From IMG/VR virus record IMGVR_UViG_3300009076_000019, positions 1-38,052 of that record: a stretch of 38,052 nucleotides of DNA. One strand, written 5' to 3'. The stretch comes from a virus. Under the pieces are notes generated by a model, which was not told the origin of the DNA, searched no databases, and was given only the letters and a program-made list of their open reading frames with translations. Of the stretch, positions 1,461 to 15,780 are shown piece after piece. The position numbers and the translations under genes were made by a program. Each line of letters starts with the position of its first letter. The stretch's first letter is position 1.

Positions 1461-1675
1461 GGCTGCCGTCTCCAGATATTGGTGTTGGTCCAGTCCTTCC
1501 AGGTCGCGTACTTGGCGCGGCCCTCGATGTCGCGCAGCTCAACGCCGGCGCCTGGTATTTCCAGCATCACTTCGTAGCTGTGGTTGGTAGGCAGGTGGCA
1601 GGCCACGCGTTTGGCTGGGATATCAAGCAGCTGCTCGATGTGCTTGGCTGCTGCGCCTTTGGTCATGACGGTCAT
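1457..1675 (-). CDS. Small phage hypothetical protein
   Basis: This 72-residue basic protein starts in an ATGA overlap with the stop codon of the gene at 1672-2187 and ends in another 4-bp overlap with the next gene. The sequence alternates short helices and probable strands. I see no known motif. The coupling on both sides is the main evidence that it is real. Confidence 0.6.
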   Translation of the reverse strand: MTVMTKGAAAKHIEQLLDIPAKRVACHLPTNHSYEVMLEIPGAGVELRDIEGRAKYATWKDWTNTNIWRRQP

Positions 1676-2187
1676 GCGCCGTACTCCTCATGCGGGATCA
1701 CTGCGCCGGTCGGGCTCTTGAAGCCCCAGCCATGGCGCTGGCCCCAGGTGACGAACAGTGTCCAAGCGCCATCTGGACCGACTTTGGCGATACGGTGGAA
1801 CTCGCCGCGGCGCATGGCTGCTGTTGTGCCTGGCAGGCGCATCCGCCTGCGAACGCCACCGGCATGCTCCCGCGCTTCCAGGTAGCCGCCACGCAGGATG
1901 AAGGTGCGGAACTGCCATGGGTGGTCGTGCATATCGCGGCCGATGTCGGCCAGCAGGATGTGGTGCACGCGGATTTGCAGGGGGCCAAAGCGCAGGAACC
2001 ACCAGCGGCGCATGTACCAGCTATCACCTGGCCACAGAGTTGTGTCGTGCGGTAGGCGAATGATTCGACTGCCATCAGCAATGGCAAGGTGGTCATAGGG
2101 TGTGCGCTGGGCGCGCTCGATGATCCAATCGGCAATAGCTGGCCGTGCCAGCAGCTTCGCGAGGAAGCGCCAGAAGAGGCTTTTCAT
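1672..2187 (-). CDS. Cupin-like phage protein
   Basis: This is a 171-residue protein. Near the middle it has HDHPWQFRTFILRGGYLE, the pattern of a cupin metal-binding strand pair (His-x-His followed by a Gly-rich turn), with a further His in the C-terminal half (GEFHRIAKV). Small cupin proteins of this type occur in many tailed-phage accessory regions, but substrate and reaction are unknown. The first 25 residues are hydrophobic and basic and could associate with membrane. GGAG lies about nine bases before the ATG. Confidence 0.6.
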   Translation of the reverse strand: MKSLFWRFLAKLLARPAIADWIIERAQRTPYDHLAIADGSRIIRLPHDTTLWPGDSWYMRRWWFLRFGPLQIRVHHILLADIGRDMHDHPWQFRTFILRGGYLEAREHAGGVRRRMRLPGTTAAMRRGEFHRIAKVGPDGAWTLFVTWGQRHGWGFKSPTGAVIPHEEYGA

Positions 2188-2897: not shown

Positions 2898-4058
2898 TCA
2901 CCTCTTCGGATAGGTCTTGGTCAGCGCGCCATTCACTGTGTGGCCGCGCTTGAGGATCAGACGCGCCAGGGCGGCGCGGTCTTTCTGGCTGTGGCTGGCC
3001 TGGCTGAGCAGGCCGAAGTAGCTGTTGGCGGTTTCGCGCAGGTCATCTGCTGGTGCTGCGGCGGTACGTTTGATGGCCTGGGCCACTGAGCGTTTCCGGG
3101 TGGTGCGCCGCCAGGGCTTGATGACGTGGCCTACGAAGTCCACGCCGCGAGCAATGGGCTGCAGGATGGTCTTGGTCGGGTTGAGGCGAGCGCCCAGCGA
3201 GGGCAGGAAAGCTTCAATCTCGGCCAACCAAGCGTTGAGCTGTTGCGGAGACTCATGCAGCAGCACGAAGTCATCCACATAGCGCACGTAGTGCTTGCAG
3301 CGCAGGCGGTGCTTCACGAACTGGTCCAGGGCATCCAGGTACACGTTGGCGAAGAACTGCGACGACAGGTTGCCGATCGGTAAACCCAGCCGCGCAGGCT
3401 GTGCAGTCAGGCGCTTGTGCTGCGGCACCCGGTTGAACAGGTGGTTGGGGCTGCGCACTTCGTAGTCGGTGCGCGGATCGTGCATCAGGATCTGTTCGGC
3501 CATGGCCAGCCACCAAGGCTCGGTGATGCGCTTGGCCAGCTGCTGGCGCAGCACCTGCTTGTCGATGGCGACGAAGAAGTTGGCAAGGTCGCCCTTGAGG
3601 TAGAAGACCGGCTTCGCCCAGTTCTGGCTGATGCTGCGGATCTTCGATTCCAGGCGCTCAGCGGCGTACAACGTGCCGCGCGTTGGTATGCAGGCGCAAC
3701 TGTCCGCTATGAAGCTGGCGTAGAAGCGCGGTGCCACATGGTTGTAAAGCAGGTGGTGGACGATGCGGTCTCGGAAGTCCGCCGCCCATACCTCCCTGGC
3801 CTTGGGCCGGGTAACCACGAAGCAGATAGAGCGGCCTGGCCGGTAGGTGCCGGCAGTCAGGTCGCTGTGCAGCTGGGTGAGATTCCGCTCTAGGTCTGCC
3901 TCGAAGGCCAGCGCGCTGGCGCTGTTGCGCTTGGAGCGCCGGCAGTCGTAGTAGGCCTGGACCAGATCGCGGAACGGGTAGGGTGCAACAGTCGAATCTG
4001 CGGACGGGGCGGACGAGACACTCGTTGTTCTTGTCGTTGTTGTTCTGATTGCCATCAT
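2898..4058 (-). CDS. DGR-type reverse transcriptase
   Basis: The 386-residue reverse transcriptase copies the TR RNA with frequent errors at adenines to make cDNA that replaces VR sequence. The palm motifs are clear: an Asp in KGDLANFF (157), GLPIGNLSSQ (225-234), which is the form typical of DGR enzymes, YVDD (260-263) and GVDFVGHVI (305-313). The N-terminal conserved block (FEADLERNL, then TYRPG) also matches this clade. There is no separate maturase domain, as expected. The start is unusual: the frame has a TGA three codons before the tandem ATG at 4058/4055, and no ATG, GTG or TTG between there and the conserved N-terminal block. Both ATGs lie inside TR, so the first 20 or so residues (Thr/Ser/Arg-rich) are encoded by TR in a different frame from the lectin. 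No good ribosome binding site is visible. Confidence 0.95.
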   Translation of the reverse strand: MMAIRTTTTRTTSVSSAPSADSTVAPYPFRDLVQAYYDCRRSKRNSASALAFEADLERNLTQLHSDLTAGTYRPGRSICFVVTRPKAREVWAADFRDRIVHHLLYNHVAPRFYASFIADSCACIPTRGTLYAAERLESKIRSISQNWAKPVFYLKGDLANFFVAIDKQVLRQQLAKRITEPWWLAMAEQILMHDPRTDYEVRSPNHLFNRVPQHKRLTAQPARLGLPIGNLSSQFFANVYLDALDQFVKHRLRCKHYVRYVDDFVLLHESPQQLNAWLAEIEAFLPSLGARLNPTKTILQPIARGVDFVGHVIKPWRRTTRKRSVAQAIKRTAAAPADDLRETANSYFGLLSQASHSQKDRAALARLILKRGHTVNGALTKTYPKR

Positions 4059-4098
4059 CGAAGTTCATGTTGAATGCGTTGTTGGCTGAGCGCTGCGA
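3998..4098 (-). repeat. DGR template repeat (TR)
   Basis: This 101-bp copy matches the three VR copies without gaps. Read on the minus strand in the lectin frame it has ten Asn codons (AAC or AAT), the usual design for A-directed mutagenesis because AAY codons cannot mutate to stop by changing A. It is not inside a target gene: its upstream side diverges right after TCGCAGCGCTCAGCC. It overlaps the reverse transcriptase start. The 27 bp at its 3' end are G+C-rich and identical in all VRs (the IMH-like segment). Confidence 0.95.
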
Positions 4099-4269
4099 CC
4101 TGTCGTGCTATCTACGTCGCCGAGCCGAAGGCAAAGCCGATCAGCCCGGAAACTGCGCGAGACCTACGCGGACGCTTTAGACCGGCGGTATCTCGGATGC
4201 GCATGGCGGTGGCCTATCGGCCAGCGGCACGACCAGATTCAAATCGCACAGACCTGATCGCCGTAACGG
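4099..4269 (-). ncRNA. Putative 5' part of the DGR TR RNA
   Basis: A 171-bp gap between avd and TR without a convincing gene. In known DGRs the template RNA extends on both sides of TR and folds, with avd upstream. A small hairpin at 4210-4223 (TGGCC, loop GATA, GGCCA on the minus strand) lies about 112 bases before TR and resembles the hairpin behind VR2. The exact ends of the RNA cannot be read from the sequence. Confidence 0.5.
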
Positions 4270-4626
4270 TCAGGCAGCGGGCGCGGTTGCGGTGTAGCGT
4301 TTCCAGGCGTTGGCCTGCTTGCCGATGGAAGCGGTCAACTCGATGGCCGCCGCATGCTGCGGAACGCTGATAAAGCGCTTTTCCTTGAACAGCCTGAGCA
4401 GGAACTCAACCACTTGGATTCGCTCAACCAGTGAGCCCAGGTGCGGCTGCTCGTCTCGCGCGGCATTGGCCCTGGCAATCAGCACCATGACCTCTATGCA
4501 TTCATCGCGAACCTTCGCGCCAAGCCCGGCCTTGAAGTCGCGCGGGATGTTCCGTGTGATATCGGTGGCCAGACTGAGCAGATCAAAGGCGAGTTTGTGT
4601 ATCGGCAGATCCGTATGCATTGCCAT
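4270..4626 (-). CDS. avd: DGR accessory variability determinant (Avd-like)
   Basis: This basic, mostly helical protein has 118 residues, the usual length of Avd, a four-helix bundle that forms a ring, binds the reverse transcriptase and TR RNA, and is needed for mutagenic cDNA synthesis. Family-like phrases are the N-terminal LPIHKLAFDLL, the IPRDFKAGLGAKVRDE segment, LIARANAA, and the C-terminal VEFLLRLFKEKRFIS with SIGKQANAWKR. I chose the ATG at 4626 because GGAAG lies seven bases upstream; a TTG at 4656 would place the start inside the VR1 hairpin. It sits between target 1 and TR, the standard DGR order. Confidence 0.9.
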   Translation of the reverse strand: MAMHTDLPIHKLAFDLLSLATDITRNIPRDFKAGLGAKVRDECIEVMVLIARANAARDEQPHLGSLVERIQVVEFLLRLFKEKRFISVPQHAAAIELTASIGKQANAWKRYTATAPAA

Positions 4627-4646
4627 CGGCTGGCTTCCATAAAGCA

Positions 4647-4664
4647 CCGGCCGCAAGCGGCCGG
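4647..4664 (-). other. Hairpin downstream of VR1
   Basis: A perfect inverted repeat with arms CCGGCCGC and GCGGCCGG and a two-base loop (or seven pairs with a four-base loop). It begins exactly 30 bp after the end of VR1 on the coding strand. Hairpins or cruciforms just downstream of the VR are known to raise retrohoming in the Bordetella phage DGR. No T-run follows, so it is not a typical terminator. Confidence 0.8.
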
Positions 4665-4678
4665 ATTAAATGAACGAA

Positions 4679-5293
4679 TTAATCAATTAGCTCGCTGCGG
4701 ACGGGGCGGACGAGACACTCGCCGTGCTTGCCGAAGTTGCCCTGATGGCCATCATCGAAGTGCACGTGGAATGCGTCGTAGGCTGAGCGCTGCGAACTCG
4801 ACCAGTACCAGCGCGCCTGGAAGGCCTCAGTGCCACCATGCTGGAAGGAAGACAGCGCGGTCTGTGCTGGCGACTCTTTGTCGTACAGGGTGCCCACCGG
4901 CAGGCTGTTGGGGTTGTCACCGTCACGGTTCCAGCAGTAGTTCTGCTCGGTGGTCGGCTTGAAGTGGCGGTACTGCAGCTCCTGCACGTCGCGGGCTGGG
5001 ATAGCCCAGTCAGTGAAGCCGCCGATATCCAGGGCCAGCACCTGCTGCGCCAGTTCGCTTCCGGCTGCGGCCATGGCCTCGGTATTGGCGCGGCTATCGG
5101 TGAAGCTGCCCGCACCTTCGATCTTGACGCCGTAATTGCCCCATTCGCCTTCCAGCTCATGCTCACGGCCGGCGGTGATGTTGAGGTAGCGCTTGCCGTC
5201 CTGCACGGTGATGCCCGAGAAGAAGCCGCCGCCGTAGGGTGCGCCGATCTCGGGAATGGTTACCGCAGAGTCCTGCTGTTGTGCTGCTTGCAT
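4679..5293 (-). CDS. DGR target 1, DUF1566/C-type-lectin-like protein
   Basis: A 204-residue target protein. The C-terminal fold has the DUF1566/lectin signature WYWSSSQRS, then the variable segment, then ECLVRPVR; the last 40 residues are encoded by VR1. An N-terminal domain of about 50-100 residues (EGEWGNYG, then ANTEAMA, then LALD) is shared with target 3, so the two are paralogues. There is no signal peptide, membrane segment or tail-fibre repeat, so I cannot say whether it reaches the virion or the cell surface. AGAGGA precedes the ATG by eight bases. It follows a terminator behind target 2. Confidence 0.92.
   Translation of the reverse strand: MQAAQQQDSAVTIPEIGAPYGGGFFSGITVQDGKRYLNITAGREHELEGEWGNYGVKIEGAGSFTDSRANTEAMAAAGSELAQQVLALDIGGFTDWAIPARDVQELQYRHFKPTTEQNYCWNRDGDNPNSLPVGTLYDKESPAQTALSSFQHGGTEAFQARWYWSSSQRSAYDAFHVHFDDGHQGNFGKHGECLVRPVRSELID
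4695..4795 (-). repeat. DGR variable repeat VR1
   Basis: The 101 bp align to TR without gaps. By eye there are 14 differences, all at positions where the TR coding strand has A. The changed codons alter residues at most Asn positions of the TR-encoded peptide (for example to Tyr, Asp, His, Gly and Phe), while WSSSQRS and ECLVRPVR are kept. Confidence 0.95.
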
Positions 5294-5319
5294 GGGTGCA
5301 TCCTCTTTTTGAAGGCAAC

Positions 5320-5340
5320 AAAAAAGGCGCTGCTGCGCCC
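5320..5340 (-). terminator. Rho-independent terminator after target 2
   Basis: On the minus strand the arms GGCGC and GCGCC enclose AGCA and are followed by six T. It lies between the VR2 hairpin and the target 1 start. The stem is short (5 bp), so termination may be partial. Confidence 0.65.
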
Positions 5341-5350
5341 TGAGTTACTG

Positions 5351-5366
5351 CTGGCCTGTCGGCCAG
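5351..5366 (-). other. Hairpin downstream of VR2
   Basis: A perfect inverted repeat, CTGGCC, loop GACA, GGCCAG on the minus strand, beginning exactly 30 bp after the end of VR2. The loop fits the GRNA pattern described for DGR hairpins. Same spacing as behind VR1. Confidence 0.85.
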
Positions 5367-5383
5367 AATGAATTAGCAAATGA

Positions 5384-5998
5384 TCAAATGAATGCTCTGC
5401 GGACGGGGCGGACGAGACACTCGATGCTCTTGTCGAAGTTGTCCTGAAAGCCATCATCGAAGAGCATGAAGAACGCGCAGTTGGCTGAGCGCTGCGAGCT
5501 GCTCCAGTACCAGCGATCCTTGGTGAAGATGCCCGGCACGTTCAGCCAGCCGAGGTACAGCTCAGCTGCAGCTGGCAGGTAGAAGTCTTTGTGTCCATCG
5601 GCGCTGTACTTCGCTGCCGCTTCTGCCGCTGGTTGGTCACCCTCGGCCAGCAGCGCCTTGGTGTTGGCCACGCCATCACGCTTACTGGTGGCCGCTGACT
5701 CTTTCTCGTAGCCACCCCAGGCGAACTTTCCGGCGTCATGCTTCGCCCAAATCAGGTAATGGGCCGGCACCTCGCCGTGAGCTGCCACCAAGCCGCCGTT
5801 GATGCCGCCTTGCTCTGGCCAGTATTCGCCCACTGCCGGGATGGAGTGCGCGCTCGGTGCCGCCGCTGGTGCTGCAACCGGCTGCACAACGCCAACCTGG
5901 GCCAGCGCTGCAGAGATAAAGGTGGTGGCCACAACATGGGCCGGCACTGACAGCTTGAAGCCTTCCGGCGTGGTGATCTTGATCATGTCGCGTTTCAT
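5384..5998 (-). CDS. DGR target 2, DUF1566/C-type-lectin-like protein
   Basis: A 204-residue target. Residues 1-55 hold a hydrophobic helix (near VVATTFISAALAQVG) and an Ala/Pro-rich linker, then the lectin-like domain with DGVANTKAL (shared with targets 1 and 3) and the closing WYWSSSQRS ... ECLVRPVR. The last 37 or so residues come from VR2. The N-terminal region differs from targets 1 and 3, which suggests a different attachment partner. GAGGA precedes the ATG. The hydrophobic segment is too internal and too short to be a clear signal peptide. Confidence 0.92.
   Translation of the reverse strand: MKRDMIKITTPEGFKLSVPAHVVATTFISAALAQVGVVQPVAAPAAAPSAHSIPAVGEYWPEQGGINGGLVAAHGEVPAHYLIWAKHDAGKFAWGGYEKESAATSKRDGVANTKALLAEGDQPAAEAAAKYSADGHKDFYLPAAAELYLGWLNVPGIFTKDRWYWSSSQRSANCAFFMLFDDGFQDNFDKSIECLVRPVRRAFI
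5397..5497 (-). repeat. DGR variable repeat VR2
   Basis: A 101-bp gapless match to TR with 14 differences by eye, all at TR adenines. The resulting residues are strongly hydrophobic at several sites (Phe, Leu, Cys, Ile), unlike VR1, which carries more His and Gly. That suggests different ligand preference. Confidence 0.95.
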
Positions 5999-6049
5999 GG
6001 GGAGTCCTCGCCAGTGGCGTGAATTATTGGAAGTGACTAGGGTCTATGT

Positions 6050-6102
6050 TCACCACCCTCCCGCCCGAGCATCAGGCAGGGAGTGGGCGGGTAGGGTGGT
6101 GA
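6050..6102. other. Long inverted repeat after the methyltransferase gene
   Basis: Arms TCACCACCCT plus CCCGCCC pair with GGGCGGG plus AGGGTGGTGA, 17 pairs with one bulged base and an 18-base loop. It begins directly at the methyltransferase stop codon (6103). No T-run follows on the minus strand, so it is not a standard terminator. It could protect the upstream message from 3' exonucleases or slow transcription into the DGR genes. Confidence 0.7.
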
Positions 6103-7131
6103 TTACAGCTGCATGTAAGCGGCTATGAACTCTTTCGCCGCTTCAGCATTGATGGCGTTTCCGTAGGCGCGCAGGCGTCCCACTCGGGAGGGAGCCCCAT
6201 TAGCCAGCGGGAATGTGCCGGATTCAACTGGCCGCCACTTTCCATCCCGGCAGAAGAGCCAGTCAGAATTAACCCAGAGGCCGTTAACCGGGCCGGCACA
6301 GTCAGCTGGGCGGCATCGTCCAAGTTCCTCTTGCCCTCGGCAAACCGCTTCATTGCCGTCTGCGGTGTCGAGGTCCGTCCGTTCGGGTCTCCGTCCCTGG
6401 CTTGCGGGGTTGGCCATCCGCCCAAGTGCCAGCTGATCGCATCCACCGTTTTCCGGCTGCTGTCGTTGTTCCCCGCTGCACTGTTGCCATTCTGCGCCGG
6501 CGTGCCCGCCATCGGAGTCGGCCAGCCGGTCAGGCATGCAGCCGCCGCAAGGTCCGGGCCGTGATTCCGCATCGCCTCCATCAGCCCCCCCTCGAAAGTC
6601 CGGACCCCTTTGTCTGCCAGCGCCGCAGTCGGTGTCGGCCACCCAATAAAGCCTGTCTCGGATGTGCGGCGCACCGATGCCCGCAGACGGGAACGGGACG
6701 GCCCCGAAGGCGTAACCCATGGCTTCCAGGTCAGCGTGTACAAGGTCGACCCAAGGCTCGACATCCTTGCTTGCAACCTGCTCTCCAATAACGACTGGAG
6801 GCGCGCACTGCTTGATGAGCCAGCCAAAACTTGGCCAGAGGTGTCTTGGGTCCGCAAACCCACCGCCAGCGCCTGCCGCGCTGAAAGGCTGGCATGGGCA
6901 ACTTCCTGTCCAGATAGGTCGATTATCCGGCCATCCCGCGCGACGCAAAGCCAATGACCAGACGCCGACTCCGGCAAAGAAGTGGCATTGCGTGTATCCC
7001 ACAAGCTCATCTGGCTTGATGTCTTCAATGCTGCGCTCATCAACTACTCCTGGCGCGATGTGACCCTCCTTGATTAGGTTGCGGAGCCACTCGGCGGCGT
7101 ATGGATCGATTTCGTTGTAATAGGCGGTCAT
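6103..7131 (-). CDS. Phage DNA cytosine-5 methyltransferase
   Basis: A 342-residue enzyme that would methylate C5 of cytosine using S-adenosylmethionine. Motifs seen: FFAGVG (motif I, 51-56), PCQPFS with the catalytic Cys (motif IV, 79-84), GEQV (motif VI variant, 116-119), HIRDRLYWVA (motif VIII) and YGNAINAEAAKEFI near the C-terminus (motif X). The middle 120 residues, which should include target recognition, are low complexity (Gly, Asp, Gln) and read another gene in a second frame. I chose the ATG at 7131 because it overlaps the upstream stop in an ATGA junction. The target sequence is unknown; a role in avoiding host restriction is inferred. Confidence 0.88.
   Translation of the reverse strand: MTAYYNEIDPYAAEWLRNLIKEGHIAPGVVDERSIEDIKPDELVGYTQCHFFAGVGVWSLALRRAGWPDNRPIWTGSCPCQPFSAAGAGGGFADPRHLWPSFGWLIKQCAPPVVIGEQVASKDVEPWVDLVHADLEAMGYAFGAVPFPSAGIGAPHIRDRLYWVADTDCGAGRQRGPDFRGGADGGDAESRPGPCGGCMPDRLADSDGGHAGAEWQQCSGEQRQQPENGGCDQLALGRMANPASQGRRPERTDLDTADGNEAVCRGQEELGRCRPADCAGPVNGLWVNSDWLFCRDGKWRPVESGTFPLANGAPSRVGRLRAYGNAINAEAAKEFIAAYMQL
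6123..7040 (-). CDS. Overlapping gene nested in the methyltransferase
   Basis: A 305-residue open frame on the same strand as the methyltransferase but in another frame. The ATG at 7040 has a strong AGGAG at a six-base spacing, better than chance would give. The protein has repeated GWPTP phrases, STLYTLTWKPW, and a C-terminal RWLMGLPPEWDACAPT. I recognise these from proteins found beside or over phage cytosine methyltransferases, where a LMGLPPEW-type phrase is common. The function is unknown; it may assist or modify the methyltransferase. Confidence 0.7.
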   Translation of the reverse strand: MSAALKTSSQMSLWDTRNATSLPESASGHWLCVARDGRIIDLSGQEVAHASLSARQALAVGLRTQDTSGQVLAGSSSSARLQSLLESRLQARMSSLGSTLYTLTWKPWVTPSGPSRSRLRASVRRTSETGFIGWPTPTAALADKGVRTFEGGLMEAMRNHGPDLAAAACLTGWPTPMAGTPAQNGNSAAGNNDSSRKTVDAISWHLGGWPTPQARDGDPNGRTSTPQTAMKRFAEGKRNLDDAAQLTVPARLTASGLILTGSSAGMESGGQLNPAHSRWLMGLPPEWDACAPTETPSMLKRRKSS

Positions 7132-7541
7132 AGCTTTAGGCCCAGGTATTTGATGGCCTTCTCGCGCCACTCGAAATCATCCCAGCCGCCCAACCTGATG
7201 TTGCACTTGTGGCAAACCAGGCCGCGAACAGCGTCGGTGTTGTGGCAGTGGTCGACGCAAGGCCGCCGCATCTCGGCCTCACAGACTGCGCATCGACCAA
7301 GCTGAGAAATCAGCATCCCCTCGAAACCATCAGCGCTCAGCTTGTAGCGGGTTGCCAGCTGCCACTTCGCTTTGTTGGCCTTGGAGTAGGTGCGCTTCCT
7401 GTTCTCTCGACGGTTTGTGTTAACGCAAGGCTTGCACCAGCTGGCGTGCCCATCGCTCGACTTGCTTGAGAGGTGGAATCCAGACAGCGGCTTTGATGTT
7501 TTGCACTTTGTGCAGGGCTTCTCTGGCTCGATTTGCTGCAT
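7128..7541 (-). CDS. Endonuclease VII-like HNH protein
   Basis: A 137-residue nuclease of the recombination endonuclease VII family, which cleaves branched DNA. It has an N-terminal CTKC ... CKPC zinc pair and a C-terminal CAVC ... CVDHCH ... VRGLVCHKCNIRLGG block holding the HNH-like catalytic site and the second zinc pair. In phages such small forms may resolve DNA branches before packaging or act as homing-type nucleases. It ends in an ATGA overlap with the methyltransferase and starts in a TAATG overlap with the gene upstream. Confidence 0.85.
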   Translation of the reverse strand: MQQIEPEKPCTKCKTSKPLSGFHLSSKSSDGHASWCKPCVNTNRRENRKRTYSKANKAKWQLATRYKLSADGFEGMLISQLGRCAVCEAEMRRPCVDHCHNTDAVRGLVCHKCNIRLGGWDDFEWREKAIKYLGLKL

Positions 7542-7738
7542 TACAGCCTCCGGCCGCGCCGTGGGTTTAGGAATGGCTTGCCGCGCTCGCCAGCTGCTGG
7601 CACGAACTGGGTGCAGATGACCACCACGTCTGTTCCGTCCTGCCGGTGCACTGGCATGGTGTGGAAGGGAAGGTGGCTGCAGTCATGTAGGCGCTTGGTG
7701 CAGGATTGGCAGCGGCTGCGCTTGGGGTGGTGGGTCAT
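7541..7738 (-). CDS. Small Cys/His phage protein
   Basis: A 65-residue basic protein with CQSCTKRLHDCSH near its N-terminus, a possible single zinc knuckle. It overlaps neighbouring genes at both ends (TAATG with the nuclease; 4 bp with the gene upstream). No named family recognised. Confidence 0.6.
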   Translation of the reverse strand: MTHHPKRSRCQSCTKRLHDCSHLPFHTMPVHRQDGTDVVVICTQFVPAAGERGKPFLNPRRGRRL

Positions 7739-8130
7739 GCACTCGATTCCGGATCGTCTTCAGTGACCGATGCCATCCCCGAGTCGAGGTCGCGCAGGTC
7801 TTGAATGCTGATGGTTGTGGTGCCGTCAGTTACCGCCCACTGATTCAGCTCTAGGCTGCGGAAGGTGCCGCAGAAGTGGCGGTATGCGCCGAGGGCTGCT
7901 CGCCGGAATGACTTGGCGGCAACCGGGCCAATCGGAATGTCCTTACCCCCCCCTGTGAGAGTTAGGTTAAACGTGGCCAGGGCCGCGATACGCTTCTGAG
8001 CGGCCCGCACAGTGCTTGGCTGCAGCTCCATAAGCTCAGCCACTTCACTGATCGACTTGCCCGCCAGTGCGTTGAATATGTTCTGGTCACGCTCCGGGTT
8101 GCGTAGGCCGGCATAAAGTACGTTCTGCAT
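7735..8130 (-). CDS. Phage protein with possible HTH
   Basis: A 131-residue protein. Residues of about 27-50 (ISEVAELMELQPSTVRAAQKRI) read as a helix-turn-helix, suggesting DNA binding. The rest is an alpha/beta region ending in an acidic tail. GGAG lies about nine bases ahead of the ATG. It could be a regulator within the leftward operon, but no target is known. Confidence 0.6.
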   Translation of the reverse strand: MQNVLYAGLRNPERDQNIFNALAGKSISEVAELMELQPSTVRAAQKRIAALATFNLTLTGGGKDIPIGPVAAKSFRRAALGAYRHFCGTFRSLELNQWAVTDGTTTISIQDLRDLDSGMASVTEDDPESSA

Positions 8131-8185
8131 AGCTTTCTCCAGGCAATAGCAGCCCGTTGCGCTGCTGGCGCTGGGCTTGGGTGGG

Positions 8186-8515
8186 TTACTTGATGTGGGC
8201 GGTGTTCTCGTCGCCCGGATCGGCGCGTAGTTCGCGCAGGCTTTCGTTGTGAAATTGCCGCGCCACGTTTTCGCTTATCTCGAAATTGTGGCGCGGGCTT
8301 TTCAGTGCATGGGCTGAGCCTTCCGGCCCAAGGGCGTGCAGGTTGATGATCATGTTCTGGATTGCTTCGGATATGACCGTGATGCCGTGCCAGCGCATGA
8401 GGTCGGCGAGCATGGCGCGAATGCCAGGGCGCACTTTGTGGCGCAGTTCTTCCTCGCCAGCCTTTGCAGCTTTTTCAGCGGACTTCTTTGAGCGCTCCTG
8501 CGTGTTCTTGGCCAT
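8186..8515 (-). CDS. Phage protein, possible DNA-binding regulator
   Basis: A 109-residue protein with a Lys/Ala-rich N-terminus (AKNTQERSKKSAEKA), a central helical block (GIRAMLADLMRWHGI) and a C-terminal PRHNFEISENVARQF phrase known from Pseudomonas phage hypotheticals. I chose the ATG at 8515 because it overlaps the preceding stop (TGATG) and follows GGAGG. Its coding DNA contains an inverted repeat at 8259-8295 that shares 13 bp with the large inverted repeat before the replication gene. Confidence 0.6.
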   Translation of the reverse strand: MAKNTQERSKKSAEKAAKAGEEELRHKVRPGIRAMLADLMRWHGITVISEAIQNMIINLHALGPEGSAHALKSPRHNFEISENVARQFHNESLRELRADPGDENTAHIK

Positions 8516-8883
8516 CACGCCTCCAAGTTCATCTTGGGTCCGCGTGTGATCTTGAACTCATCCAGCAGGCTCAGGATGGTGCGTGGCGTGCTGCCGATGG
8601 CGCGTGCCATGCCGATGATGGTTCCACCGGTGGCCGCCAGGGGTTTGATCTGTTCAGCCTGCTTTGCTCGGCGCTCCATGCGCATCTGGTTGAGGCGCTG
8701 GCGGGCAGAAAGGATGCCTGCCGGCGAGTTGTCTTGATCCAGCCAGCGGACTTCTTTGTTCAGCCGCTGGCGGGCCTGGTGCTGGGCGAAGCGCCGCGGG
8801 TGTTTGGCTGGATCAAGCTTTGCGGCGCAGCCGAGCATGGCGTGCTGCTCGGCGTGGCTGTGAAAGTGGGGGGTTGGGATCAT
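8515..8883 (-). CDS. Phage hypothetical with C-terminal HTH
   Basis: A 122-residue basic, His-rich protein (several His in the first 35 residues). Its end reads GMARAIGSTPRTILSLLDEF, a plausible helix-turn-helix. GGAGG precedes the ATG. It is coupled to the next gene through a TGATG overlap. No family name recognised. Confidence 0.6.
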   Translation of the reverse strand: MIPTPHFHSHAEQHAMLGCAAKLDPAKHPRRFAQHQARQRLNKEVRWLDQDNSPAGILSARQRLNQMRMERRAKQAEQIKPLAATGGTIIGMARAIGSTPRTILSLLDEFKITRGPKMNLEA

Positions 8884-8895
8884 GCTGGCCTCCGG

Positions 8896-9165
8896 TCAGG
8901 CGTGTGCCTGGGTGTGGGTGCCGTTTTCCAGCGCCTGCTGCAGCCAGGCGGCCTCGCGGGCCGTACGGCGAAAGCCCAGGCAGCGGCCGCTGGTGCTGTC
9001 GATGACGTGCACCATGCCTTTGCCGGCCATGAGTGCCTGGGTGCGGTCTGGGCGGTAGCCTTGCGAGAGGTTGCGGCCGGCGAATGCCGCGCGGGCTTGG
9101 CGGGCGAGTTCCAGCAGGTCAGTCAGTTCGGTGACGCTGGCCTTGGCTTGTTGCAGTGCGTTCAT
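8896..9165 (-). CDS. Small phage hypothetical protein
   Basis: An 89-residue protein from the ATG at 9165, which follows GAGGTG. Upstream codons stay open to 9438, but that extension lies over the structured RNA-like region and has no good start. The N-terminal third is a coiled helix (MNALQQAKASVTELTDLLELA). The C-terminal part contains GRCLGFRRTAREAAWLQQAL. Function unknown. Confidence 0.6.
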   Translation of the reverse strand: MNALQQAKASVTELTDLLELARQARAAFAGRNLSQGYRPDRTQALMAGKGMVHVIDSTSGRCLGFRRTAREAAWLQQALENGTHTQAHA

Positions 9166-9837
9166 GGTGTGGCACCTCGGTTGGTCATACCCATAAGTCA
9201 GCCGCACCAACGCGCCAGACTTCCGCAAGGTTGCCTGCCGGGCTGGCTGCTTATGGGTGCGGGGAAGGGGAAAAGAGCCCGCCGAATGAAAACTGGCGGG
9301 CTTTGAATATCCGGCTTGCGACCTTTCCGGATGACCTTCGGTGCTAGTGACACCTGGCGGCTCCGCTCCTGCGTTGCCGTGGCCCGATGTACGTGTCTGC
9401 CTCACGGCGAGCCCTGCCCAGCTGGAATGCAAAGGCATCTAACTGGGTTGTGATGCGCGATATTGCGCATCGGCCAATGATCGAAGCACCACGGCGTAAC
9501 CCGTGCTTACTTCCCGCCCGCTCGTTTCTGGTATTGGCCGTCTTGCATTAACCGGCCCAGGAGAATTGCGGGGCTTTGCTGCTCCAAGCGTTGCGTGGCA
9601 CTTGCCAACGCCTCAATCATTGGCCGATGCGCCCTGTTACCAGGCTATCGGTGCCTTACTGCCCAGGCGGCAAACCTGCTCATTACCGGGCGCTGCTTCA
9701 TGCGTTGCCCGGCGGCGTCCCGGTCGTGTTGCGGGATTAGTTGCAGGCGCAGGGCGCTTCCCCTGTGCGCATCTGGTCTAGCCAGCGTCGTTGCCGGCCC
9801 CGCGATTCACCTGCAAAGAAGGGAATGAATTACTGAA
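9166..9837 (-). ncRNA. 672-bp gene-free region with C4-like structured RNA
   Basis: No convincing gene. Minus-strand 9276-9460 has several nested hairpins: GCCGTG with CACGGC, GGTG with CACC, ATCCGG with CCGGAT, then a terminator-like stem at 9276-9302 followed by CTTTT. A further inverted repeat (ACCCATAAG with CTTATGGGT) lies over 9187-9256. The order and the sequence resemble, from memory, the C4 antisense RNA region of P1/P4-type phages, where an open frame (Ash-like) spans the RNA, as here up to 9438. C4 RNA silences a downstream antirepressor; no antirepressor is seen here. The 9480-9837 part carries no clear signal. Confidence 0.4.
9276..9302 (-). terminator. Terminator-like stem
   Basis: AGCCCGCC and GGCGGGCT enclose an 11-base loop, followed on the minus strand by CTTTTCCCC. 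It would end the putative structured RNA ahead of the small gene at 8896-9165. The T-run is short. Confidence 0.5.
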
Positions 9838-10317
9838 TTAGCAAATGAGCAATCTGCGGACGGGGCGGACGAGACACTCGTCGTTCTTGTCGTCGGTGGT
9901 CTGATTGCCAACACCGAAGTGCATGAAGAATGCGCCGTAGGCTGAGCGCTGCGAGCTGCTCCAGTACCAGCTGCTTTTGAACTTCAACAGGCCAGCATGC
10001 TTGGCGGCGAACAGCAGGTTCAGCTCCAGGGCTGCTGGAATAAATGCGCCGTCTAGCGCGAGCGCCAGCTGGGCAATGCTGCTGCCGGTTTCAGCCATTG
10101 CCAGGGTATTGGCCATGCCATCGCTGTAACTTGCAGCGCCAGGCACTTCCTGGCCGTACTTCCCCCATTCGCCTTCGAACTCTGCCTCGCTGCCCAGATC
10201 AATCAGGGCGTACTCGGCATCACCCAGCCAGTAGCGGGTGACGAAGGTGCCGCCGGCGAGTGGCTGGCCTCGCGCTGGAAGATCAGCGGCGGCGATTCTT
10301 TGTTGTGCTGTTGTCAT
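9838..10317 (-). CDS. DGR target 3, DUF1566/C-type-lectin-like protein
   Basis: A 159-residue target, the shortest of the three. It has EGEWGKYG, ANTLAMAETGSS and LALD in the same order as target 1, and the closing WYWSSSQRS ... ECLVRPVR; the last 37 or so residues come from VR3. AGAGGAACG precedes the ATG. It lies 3.8 kb from the other targets, as the first gene behind the pL-like promoter with operators, so it may be expressed at a different time. There is no signal peptide or membrane segment. Confidence 0.92.
   Translation of the reverse strand: MTTAQQRIAAADLPARGQPLAGGTFVTRYWLGDAEYALIDLGSEAEFEGEWGKYGQEVPGAASYSDGMANTLAMAETGSSIAQLALALDGAFIPAALELNLLFAAKHAGLLKFKSSWYWSSSQRSAYGAFFMHFGVGNQTTDDKNDECLVRPVRRLLIC
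9854..9954 (-). repeat. DGR variable repeat VR3
   Basis: A 101-bp gapless match to TR with 12 differences by eye, all at TR adenines. Uniquely, the two Asp codons that VR1 and VR2 keep (GAT GAT) are changed to Gly and Val. VR3 lacks the hairpin found 30 bp behind VR1 and VR2, though the AATTCATT flank is at the same distance. Confidence 0.95.
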
Positions 10318-10626: not shown

Positions 10627-10656
10627 AATATGAACCATAAGTACAAACACCGTCAA
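10627..10656 (-). promoter_or_regulatory. pL-like promoter for the leftward operon
   Basis: On the minus strand, TTGACG (10651-10656) and CATATT (10627-10632) are 18 bases apart, a good sigma-70 promoter. It overlaps both operator-like repeats and would start about 300 bases before target 3. Confidence 0.7.
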
Positions 10657-10671
10657 GAACCAAAAGTACAT
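10632..10671 (+). promoter_or_regulatory. OL-like operator pair
   Basis: Two copies of a 14-15 bp element, GAACCATAAGTACA (10632-10645) and GAACCAAAAGTACAT (10657-10671), 25 bp apart. They are imperfect palindromes (GAAC.. / ..GTAC) and match the pair beside the repressor start, which suggests repressor binding at both sites. Confidence 0.7.
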
Positions 10672-10842: not shown

Positions 10843-11580
10843 TTATTCCGACTGGGTGAAGCGCGAGGTTTTCACGATTGCGCCTACGTACTGGATGTAT
10901 TGGATCTCATGCTCGGCCAGAAAGATCGGGTCATAGGCTGCGTTGACGCTATCAAAACGGTACTGGCCGTCCCGAAAGTAGACGAACTCTTTGATCATGC
11001 ACTGGCCGCCCTTGGTCTTAACCAGCACCTCGTCGCCCGATACGTATTCTTTGTTCGGCTCGACTACAACGAACTCGTTGTGCTTGATGCGGGGCTTCAT
11101 GCTGTGCCCCACAACCCGCAGGCCATAGGCGTTAGGGTCATTGCTGAAAATGCTGAGGAAGCCTTCGCCATGCCCAACAGGATATTCGAGCGCCTCAAAA
11201 TAGCCATCAGGCCCAAGCATTGCTTTACCCACTACCGGAACACTCCCTGCTCGGACTTCTAGGGGCTCCCCTTGCACGTTGCTGTCTATTGCATCAGCAA
11301 AGGTGTAGCTACCGCGATGTTCTTCCGCGCCATTGGCTTGCGGGGCGCCAATGCCGTACTGCAGCCACTCAGCTCGAACCGAGAGAGCGCTGGCTATCGC
11401 TTCCAGGTTGGCGCGCCCTGGCATCGACTCTTGGTTTAGCCACTTGCTCGCCGCCTTGGCTGTTGTGCCGGCTATAGCGGCCAGGCGAGCGCCAAGGCCC
11501 CACTCGGGTATGCCTTTTTGTTGAGCTGCCTGTTTAAGGCGATCCACGAATGGGCCGCGCACATCTTCTGACTGAACCAT
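10843..11580 (-). CDS. CI/LexA-type phage repressor
   Basis: A 245-residue lysogeny repressor with an N-terminal helix-turn-helix (about 28-50, GARLAAIAGTTAKAASKWL) and a C-terminal S24 self-cleavage domain. The hinge has the Ala-Gly cleavage pair at 111-112 (RAGSVPVVG), the nucleophile is Ser160 in GHSM, and the general base is probably Lys197 in CMIKEF. RecA filaments would trigger cleavage, so the phage should respond to SOS. I prefer the ATG at 11580 to the ATG at 11625 because the latter sits inside the operator pair; neither has a strong ribosome binding site. It is divergent from the Cro-like gene. Confidence 0.9.
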   Translation of the reverse strand: MVQSEDVRGPFVDRLKQAAQQKGIPEWGLGARLAAIAGTTAKAASKWLNQESMPGRANLEAIASALSVRAEWLQYGIGAPQANGAEEHRGSYTFADAIDSNVQGEPLEVRAGSVPVVGKAMLGPDGYFEALEYPVGHGEGFLSIFSNDPNAYGLRVVGHSMKPRIKHNEFVVVEPNKEYVSGDEVLVKTKGGQCMIKEFVYFRDGQYRFDSVNAAYDPIFLAEHEIQYIQYVGAIVKTSRFTQSE

Positions 11581-11600
11581 TTGTTCACTGTCGCACGTCC

Positions 11601-11630
11601 TTGCATGTACTTTCAGTTCCGTCATAGTAT
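11601..11630 (+). promoter_or_regulatory. pR-like promoter for the rightward operon
   Basis: TTGCAT (11601-11606) and TAGTAT (11625-11630) are 18 bases apart on the plus strand, ahead of the Cro-like gene, and overlap both operator copies. A second CATATT at 11643-11648 matches the -10 of pL by position but lacks a good -35. Confidence 0.6.
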
Positions 11631-11643
11631 GTACTTACAGTTC
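11605..11643 (-). promoter_or_regulatory. OR-like operator pair
   Basis: GAACTGAAAGTACAT (11605-11619) and GAACTGTAAGTACA (11630-11643), both read on the minus strand, 24 bp apart. They mirror the OL-like pair and lie between the divergent repressor and Cro-like genes. Confidence 0.75.
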
Positions 11644-14516: not shown

Positions 14517-14764
14517 TGGACCAGCCTGATGAAATAAACAACCCACAGCACTACCAGCTGTTCCCCGATATGCAGGCCATCGACGTGATCAAGGCAGCGC
14601 TGACGCCTGCTGAATACATCGGTTACCTGAAGGGCAACGCACTCAAGTACCGCCTGCGCGCTGGTGACAAAGGGCCGGCTGAGAAGTGCATCGCCAAGGC
14701 CAATTGGTATCAAGATCGGCTGCGGTCTGCAGCTGATCAGCCTGGACGAGTGGTTGAGATCTGA
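14516..14764 (+). CDS. DUF3310 protein
   Basis: An 82-residue protein. The phrases NNPQHYQ, IDVIKAAL, GYLKGNALKYRLRAGDKG and KANWY define DUF3310, sometimes annotated as a nucleotide kinase-like phage protein, with unproven function. GGAGG precedes the ATG by seven bases, and its stop overlaps the recombinase ATG. Confidence 0.85.
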   Translation: MDQPDEINNPQHYQLFPDMQAIDVIKAALTPAEYIGYLKGNALKYRLRAGDKGPAEKCIAKANWYQDRLRSAADQPGRVVEI

Positions 14765-15780
14765 TGGCGGCCAAGGGCGGCGAACTGCGCACCACTGGCG
14801 ATGTGCTGCTGTGGTGGTTGGAGCGGGTTGAGAGTGACCGAGCCAGCTCGGACAGTTACAAGCGCAGCACGCGCAGCATGGTGCGTAAGAACATCCTGCC
14901 TGCCCTGGGCAAGGTGTCGGTCGCCAAGCTGGATCGGCGTGCGCTGGATGACAAGCTGGTGTGGCCGATGGTGCAGGACGGCAAGAAGGCTGGCACTCAG
15001 CAGAAAGCATTCCAGGCGCTGCGCCAGGCCTTTTTGCTGGCTGAAAAAACCGGGCGCATCAAGGCCAACCCGATGGCCTCGCTGACCTTCAAAAGCTTTC
15101 ACCGCGGCGCCATTGGCAGCAAGGCGGCTCGGTTGTCGCGGGTTGATCTGCCAGGGCTTGTGCAGCAGTTGGCGGCGAACTTTAACCGCGACCCGGTGAA
15201 TGGCCTGTTGCCTTTGCTGATGCTGGCCCATGGCACGCGCATCGGCGAAACCCTGCAGGCGCAGTGGTCGCACATCTCCCTGGTTGAGCGGGTGTGGGTG
15301 CTGCCAGAGCTGAACTGCAAGTCTCGCCGCCAGCACATCCTGCCGCTTACCCCTCAGGTGCTGGCCTTGTTGGCGCGCTATCGCCAGGCGCTGCCAGATG
15401 CTCGTGCGCAGATCGATTGGGTGTTCCCAGTGCGTGGTGGTGCTCGGCTGTCGCCAACCACTGCCAGTGCAATGTTCAGGTCGGTATCGGGCGGCAAGTG
15501 GTCGAGCCATGACCTACGCAAGCTGATGCGCGATTGCTTGGCTGACCTGGGCGTCGACTTCTTTATCGGTGAGCGGCTGATCAATCACAGCCTGGGCAAG
15601 GTGTCGGAAACCTACCTGACCCGCGACGTGATGGAGCGTTGCCGGGAGGCGTTGGAGCGCTGGCATGCACGCCTTGATGAGTGTGGTTTCAGTCTCGCGC
15701 ACGGCTTGGATATGGCCGCTCCTGCATCTTCACCAAATCCAGAAACCCCAGAGCCTACGGGCGCTGCGGCCATTTCCTGA
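14764..15780 (+). CDS. Tyrosine recombinase in the rightward operon
   Basis: A 338-residue tyrosine recombinase with the full catalytic set by eye: Arg159 (HGTRIGE), Lys186 (NCKSRRQ), His249 and Arg252 (SSHDLRK), His275 (LINHSLG) and the nucleophile Tyr284 (SETYL). The N-terminal 110 residues form a SAM-like core-binding domain. It lies between DUF3310 and DUF1064, not at an attachment site, and is coupled by a TGATG overlap. The DUF4224 protein at the left edge suggests a second, conventional integrase. This one may act in DNA processing or in a different recombination event. Confidence 0.88.
   Translation: MAAKGGELRTTGDVLLWWLERVESDRASSDSYKRSTRSMVRKNILPALGKVSVAKLDRRALDDKLVWPMVQDGKKAGTQQKAFQALRQAFLLAEKTGRIKANPMASLTFKSFHRGAIGSKAARLSRVDLPGLVQQLAANFNRDPVNGLLPLLMLAHGTRIGETLQAQWSHISLVERVWVLPELNCKSRRQHILPLTPQVLALLARYRQALPDARAQIDWVFPVRGGARLSPTTASAMFRSVSGGKWSSHDLRKLMRDCLADLGVDFFIGERLINHSLGKVSETYLTRDVMERCREALERWHARLDECGFSLAHGLDMAAPASSPNPETPEPTGAAAIS

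Follow-up and report, generated by a model that had tools for sequence, protein, structure and literature searches.

An intact and probably active diversity-generating retroelement with three lectin-like targets in the putative early operon of a temperate phage

What does a temperate phage gain from hypermutating three of its own small genes, and at which stage of its life might it do so? The question is raised by a diversity-generating retroelement (DGR) in IMG/VR record IMGVR_UViG_3300009076_000019, a temperate phage whose 38,052 bases, examined in full, we call the window. A sequence-only reading had proposed a complete DGR with one template repeat (TR), three variable repeats (VRs) and lectin-like targets, a proposal borne out by the repeats, by a reverse transcriptase (RT) and an Avd protein, and by the lectin fold of the targets. 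Overall, we believe, with a probability of roughly 0.9, that the element is an intact, naturally active DGR, judging from its own sequence and those of its relatives. More telling than the number of targets or their distance is an oddity on which the earlier reading did not remark, namely that the targets are placed in what appears to be an early operon.

The repeats carry the argument (Table 1). A scan for TR-like copies across the window recovers the TR and three VRs and no fourth VR, and in the block common to all copies TR adenines account for 40 of the 40 mismatches pooled over VR A, VR B and VR C, a result with a probability of about 1e-20 by chance, given the base composition of the TR. 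That block is 101 bp long, as had been claimed; identity with the TR continues for 0-3 bp beyond it in VR B and VR C. Each VR forms the 3' end of its own open reading frame (ORF), and AAC codons are abundant when the TR is read in the target frame, giving about 1e17 potential protein variants. Ordinary paralogy, in which lectin genes unconnected to the RT merely conserve a 3' end, would agree with the strong matches of all three targets to a single family, phrog_4245. However, the repeated block also stands upstream of the RT as the TR, its changes fall on adenines exclusively, and the same pattern holds in 320 pairs of relatives; the adenine pattern excludes paralogy, to which we give practically no credence.

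Table 1. Coordinates of the DGR, its targets and the associated regulatory features in the window
Feature	Position	Strand	Details
TR	3998..4098	-	101 bp, 32 adenines
VR A	4695..4795	-	14 mismatches to TR, every one at a TR adenine
VR B	5397..5497	-	14 mismatches to TR, every one at a TR adenine
VR C	9854..9954	-	12 mismatches to TR, every one at a TR adenine
DGR RT ORF	2898..4058	-	YVDD and IGNLSSQ motifs
Avd accessory protein	4270..4656	-	Pfam bAvd 48.4 bits (cut-off 40); PHROG 3206 'Avd protein of DGR'
RT-15 structured RNA (Rfam RF03018)	4096..4286	-	180.2 bits (gathering threshold 82); leader between avd 3' end and TR
Target A	4679..5293	-	204 aa; C-type-lectin fold
Target B	5384..5998	-	204 aa; N-terminal strand-strand-helix module and C-type-lectin fold
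Target C	9838..10317	-	159 aa; lectin-like; first gene of leftward operon
Hairpin after VR A	4647..4664	-	CCGGCCG-CTTG-CGGCCGG, 30 nt past VR A; candidate target-recognition hairpin
Hairpin after VR B	5351..5366	-	CTGGCC-GACA-GGCCAG, 30 nt past VR B
Putative PL promoter	10627..10656	-	TTGACG-18-CATATT
Putative OL	10632..10670		two operator-like sites, 10632-10645 and 10657-10670
Putative OR	11573..11643		matching sites 11574-11587, 11606-11619 and 11630-11643, at cI/cro junction
CI-like repressor	10843..11625	-	phrog_4; ORF start overlapped by operator-like site

The relatives of this DGR, encoded in 458 viral and 144 genome stretches, suggest that such elements are at work. Across 320 distinct TR/VR pairs, substitutions affect 44% of adenines and less than 0.4% of C, G or T. 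For example, consider two loci, L063 and L064, in which the TR and core are identical: within about 2.7 kb around the RT they differ solely at 14 adenine sites, all in VR A, and VR B holds 17 further adenine-site differences. Two prophages of one genome, L049 and L050, share the same TR, and their two VRs show differences at 13 and 19 adenine sites. Since VR adenines are the only sites at which relatives with the same core differ, the system appears to be active, judged by natural variation. Invariant VRs in related phages, an objection that the sequence-only reading had itself raised, are not what we find; the relatives' VRs vary, at adenines only. No near-identical copy of the window for comparing VRs was present in viral_contigs, a search that possibly left out the records closest to it. 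The DGR cores of L049 and L050 (genome record set 2639763197) are 99.5% identical while their VRs differ, and cross-homing between the two prophages would be possible.

Decay, with the repeats as relics and the RT dead, could be suspected from the relatives that have lost one VR or carry a rewritten, adenine-poor TR. Against this, the RT, Avd and RT-15 RNA of the window are intact, its VRs are free of any non-adenine mismatch, and relatives show hardly any drift outside adenines, all of which makes decay very improbable.

The RT and Avd are real DGR components. Profile searches identify the RT ORF (RVT_1, E 1e-15; PHROG 1423 'Reverse transcriptase', E 6e-115); its best PDB match is 8ub7 'Reverse transcriptase' (E 1e-37), which we take to be the BPP-1 DGR RT, and by tblastn it matches BPP-1 brt with 31% identity over 85%. 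An inactive RT, the other objection foreseen, finds no echo in motifs that are intact, and YxDD and GxxxSQ are present in 150 of 151 distinct relatives. The Avd assignment (Table 1) is joined by a match to the NCBIfam Avd model at a score under that model's cut-off.

Where the RT begins is of interest in itself. Ahead of the conserved RT region the only in-frame ATG, GTG or TTG starts are at 4058 and 4055, both within the TR. A start downstream of the TR was considered and rejected, the window having no in-frame ATG, GTG or TTG there. As in the window, an ATG within the TR (position -81) is the closest in-frame start upstream in 55 of 137 distinct loci, and the frame is open across the TR in all relatives displayed except one or two very distant ones. 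An open frame together with a start inside the repeat suggests that the TR probably doubles, in a second frame, as coding sequence for the RT N-terminus.

Between avd and the TR lies RT-15, placed identically in seven of seven further loci, beta-proteobacterial ones included. In 149 Pseudomonas genomes RT-15 scores above its cut-off ten times, and each match adjoins a DGR RT with two VRs, as seen in a short stretch around it. From this constant placement we infer that RT-15 makes up the 5' part, or leader, of the template RNA in this DGR lineage, which would suggest a function for the RNA family. A literature search returned no match linking RT-15 with DGRs, and the TR plus leader had no match among E. 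coli genomes.

How the system might tell template from recipient is less straightforward. In BPP-1 the initiation-of-mutagenic-homing sequence (IMH) of the VR differs from its counterpart in the TR (IMH*), and the difference protects the template. In the window the last 25 nt are identical in the TR and all three VRs, and TR and VR 3' ends are exactly alike in 226 of 323 pairs of relatives; we regard the IMH/IMH* difference as a property of BPP-1 and not of every DGR. Hairpins follow VR A and VR B, and a hairpin downstream of the repeat occurs in relatives after 94 of 128 copies of VR A, 38 of 105 of VR B and 12 of 47 of VR C, with 5 of 136 for the TR as control and an expectation from shuffles of about 3-5%. 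Because it lies past VR A and VR B but not past the TR, the hairpin may mark the recipient repeat; it may also be a terminator.

Template protection may be leaky in this lineage, as the TR has apparently been rewritten in two relatives. The TR of L005 (9877-9977) differs from that of the window at 13 positions, all of them adenines, and L005 VR B (8475-8575) matches its own TR except at one site. L005 is a single metagenome contig in which an assembly fault is possible, and no independent copy was found in viral_contigs. In L124, an isolate genome, the 3' half of the TR has seven adenine-only changes relative to L125, mostly common to both VRs. The rewritten TRs retain 19 (L005) and 22 (L124) adenines. 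Read most simply, these changes would mean that the template was replaced by a mutated copy, which in turn was copied into the VRs. Separately, the distal VR of L064, about 8.5 kb upstream of the RT, departs from its own TR at several non-adenine positions, and its 3' end resembles that of the window-type TR; target and template do not correspond here, and the target was perhaps acquired by recombination.

The next question is what is being diversified. Structure models were made for targets A and B, while the lectin assignment of target C comes from its sequence family (phrog_4245). The model of target A (predicted local distance difference test score, pLDDT, 86; predicted template modelling score, pTM, 0.86) has as its best match the C-terminal domain of Legionella Lcl (8q4e, Z 11.8) and also matches Treponema denticola variable protein 1 (2y3c, Z 6.2), a known DGR product. 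That of target B (pLDDT 83, pTM 0.68), in which the VR-encoded part is the low-confidence part, matches the Lcl C-terminal domain at Z 9.5; Foldseek gave no match below E 0.001 for target B, with Lcl ranked first. Both models match further C-type-lectin folds. Scores against Pfam Lcl_C (PF07603) are 32.4, 23.2 and 23.6 bits for the three targets, below the gathering threshold of 34.9, and we describe the targets as resembling Lcl_C in predicted fold, as modelled for A and B, and not as Lcl_C members. Residues 1-45 of target B (window 5864-5998, minus strand) form a short strand-strand-helix module, kept in target B and absent from target A; many distal targets of Pseudomonas phages have a module resembling it, which may serve in oligomerisation or in binding a partner. 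A Fis-like match of this module (Z 3.3) is too weak for use.

The genomic setting of the targets points to control by the repressor. All three targets, avd and the RT are codirectional and leftward, and a palindromic operator-like motif, GAACnnnnnGTwCA, has eight matches in the window against 0.25 expected. Six lie around cI, of which two flank a PL-like promoter and the others fall at the cI/cro junction; since one overlaps the start of the repressor ORF, the true CI start may be further downstream. The ribosome-binding-like AGAGGAA precedes the target C start at 10317. Target C had been described as lying 3.8 kb away in front of the repressor. The distance is right as measured from target B (from the TR it is about 5.8 kb), and the orientation is the reverse: target C lies downstream of the repressor on the same strand, behind a terminator-like hairpin (inverted repeat I14) 3' of cI and the putative OL/PL. 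An S24-type repressor is codirectional and upstream of the RT in 88 relatives and downstream in one, and in Cruim01, Haboob, Magia, phPA-G and LPPA56 the cassette stands among early genes (methylase, recombination genes, integrase).

Several observations touch the neighbourhood. A promoter-like TGAACA-18-AATAAT lies directly upstream of target B (6023-6052, minus strand), such sites occurring at chance level. An integrase-like ORF (14764-15780, plus strand), called from the ORF sequence only, runs rightward beside replication genes, unlike Haboob, Cruim01 and Magia, in which the integrase ends the leftward operon. Downstream of the RT, an ORF at 1672-2187 (minus strand) matches phrog_4786 (cysteine dioxygenase).

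Adapting the BPP-1 model to this anatomy, we envisage that leftward transcription of all parts would start at a CI-repressed PL, so that diversification and target expression would fall in the early lytic or induction phase. RT-Avd would reverse-transcribe the leader-TR RNA, inserting bases at random opposite adenines, and the cDNA so mutated would replace the VRs by homing at the common GC-rich 3' end, with the TR remaining the master copy. Along these lines the DGR targets would sit in early, repressor-controlled genes and not among tail genes, and we tentatively propose, at somewhat less than even odds, that they are small, early-made, non-structural binders of a variable partner in the host or a rival phage, rather than receptor-binding tail parts.

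Alternatively, the targets of the same DGR could be minor virion proteins, adhesins that alter adsorption as BPP-1 Mtd does, their early position being incidental. Most of the phage DGR targets that have been studied are tail proteins (PMC8144416, PMC10743442), as are most viral targets in the largest DGR survey (PMC8144416); the C-type-lectin fold is shared with known receptor binders, and the authors of Magia propose a change of host range (PMC7883833). On the other hand, targets A and C scarcely exceed the lectin domain and have no evident virion anchor, and the targets follow cI in an operon that also contains genes for DNA methylase, recombination or integrase. TR-like DNA in 20 phage records is restricted to the TR, two adjacent VRs and at most one distal VR; no VR lies in a tail gene of the window or of these records, and no lectin homologue was found outside the cassette and distal target in 18 phage records, tail genes included. 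The tail-protein arrangement thus appears foreign to this DGR lineage, and we consider virion adhesins unlikely, though deserving of serious attention.

Another alternative is that the lysogen produces target C, and perhaps target B, as a protein of superinfection exclusion or defence. Lambda keeps rex downstream of cI, the position of the distal target here, and DGR-based prokaryotic immunity has been proposed earlier (PMC10053308). Read-through from cI into target C is not expected, however, given the terminator-like hairpin and the OL/PL in between, and targets A and C have no signal peptide evident by inspection; we hold lysogenic expression to be somewhat less likely again than virion adhesins.

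At the same time, several points weigh against our own account of early-made binders diversified by an active DGR. The IMH/IMH* difference is absent, 3' ends being mostly identical throughout the lineage, and no clear hairpin follows VR C. What bears on retrohoming is the natural variation among nearly identical relatives, the operators and the promoter were assigned by consensus, and a gene's position does not prove that its product is missing from the virion.

Regardless of what the targets bind, the cassette is a common and already recognised type in Pseudomonas-family phages, found also in Cruim01, Haboob and Magia. VRs were counted in 151 distinct loci, of which 119 have at least 9.5 kb of upstream DNA; among the latter, 79 have two VRs, 34 have three and one has four. 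With three or more VRs in 35 of 119, the third usually remote, three targets are an ordinary state for this lineage and not the rarity that had been implied. The usual layout is two adjacent targets at about -1.5 and -0.8 kb, a third being mostly 3.4 to 9.7 kb off. Within its lineage the cassette of the window is nothing unusual; the lineage itself, however, is common, with targets placed in an apparent early operon. We extend the proposal, just as tentatively: a DGR lineage widespread among temperate phages of Pseudomonas and beta-proteobacteria would hypermutate small, CI-regulated, non-virion early proteins. If true, DGRs would serve phages in a second way, alongside the switching of tail-fibre tropism. 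Textbooks take receptor switching to be the purpose of phage DGRs, and cultured temperate phages such as Cruim01, Haboob and Magia make that assumption testable.

It remains to compare the element with known systems. The BPP-1 DGR (mtd-avd-TR-brt) shares with it the order target-avd-TR-RT, adenine mutagenesis, a lectin-fold target and a homologous RT. Unlike BPP-1, the window DGR has three targets, apparently in an early operon, a TR that overlaps the RT ORF, identical TR and VR 3' ends with no IMH* in the template, and a long RT-15 leader. Rfam RF03018 is catalogued just as 'RT-15 RNA', and is placed here as the probable 5' part of a DGR template RNA. The accessible parts of two surveys (DiGReF, PMC3521204; PMC6642488) already describe DGRs with two to four VRs and distant targets up to 370 kb away, as does the Magia report for multiple, distant targets (PMC7883833); the surveys class a TR overlapping the RT 5' or 3' end as DiGReF group 3 and enter Pseudomonas fluorescens WH6 with 2 VRs. 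Those parts give neither early-operon nor RT-15 context, unlike the present analysis. What is new here is the early-operon setting, RT-15 as putative leader, the overlap of the TR with the RT start in this lineage, the activity in relatives and the apparently rewritten TRs. Closest are the Pseudomonas phages Cruim01, Haboob, SC_8_H2H8_2017, LPPA56 and phPA-G, with RTs 71-87% identical to that of the window, the same core and two adjacent targets in the early region; no distal VR was found in SC_8_H2H8_2017 or Haboob (whole record) or in LPPA56 or phPA-G (about 8 kb upstream), and Cruim01 has a third, distal target, like the window. Burkholderia phage Magia (NC_070954) has a 64% identical RT, an Avd and three adenine-mutated VRs, one of them 7.2 kb upstream. 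Its authors named two DGR targets, genes 47 and 57 (PMC7883833), and our scan places the third VR in gp46, beside avd; gp57, the distal target, leads the leftward genes shown, as target C does in the window.

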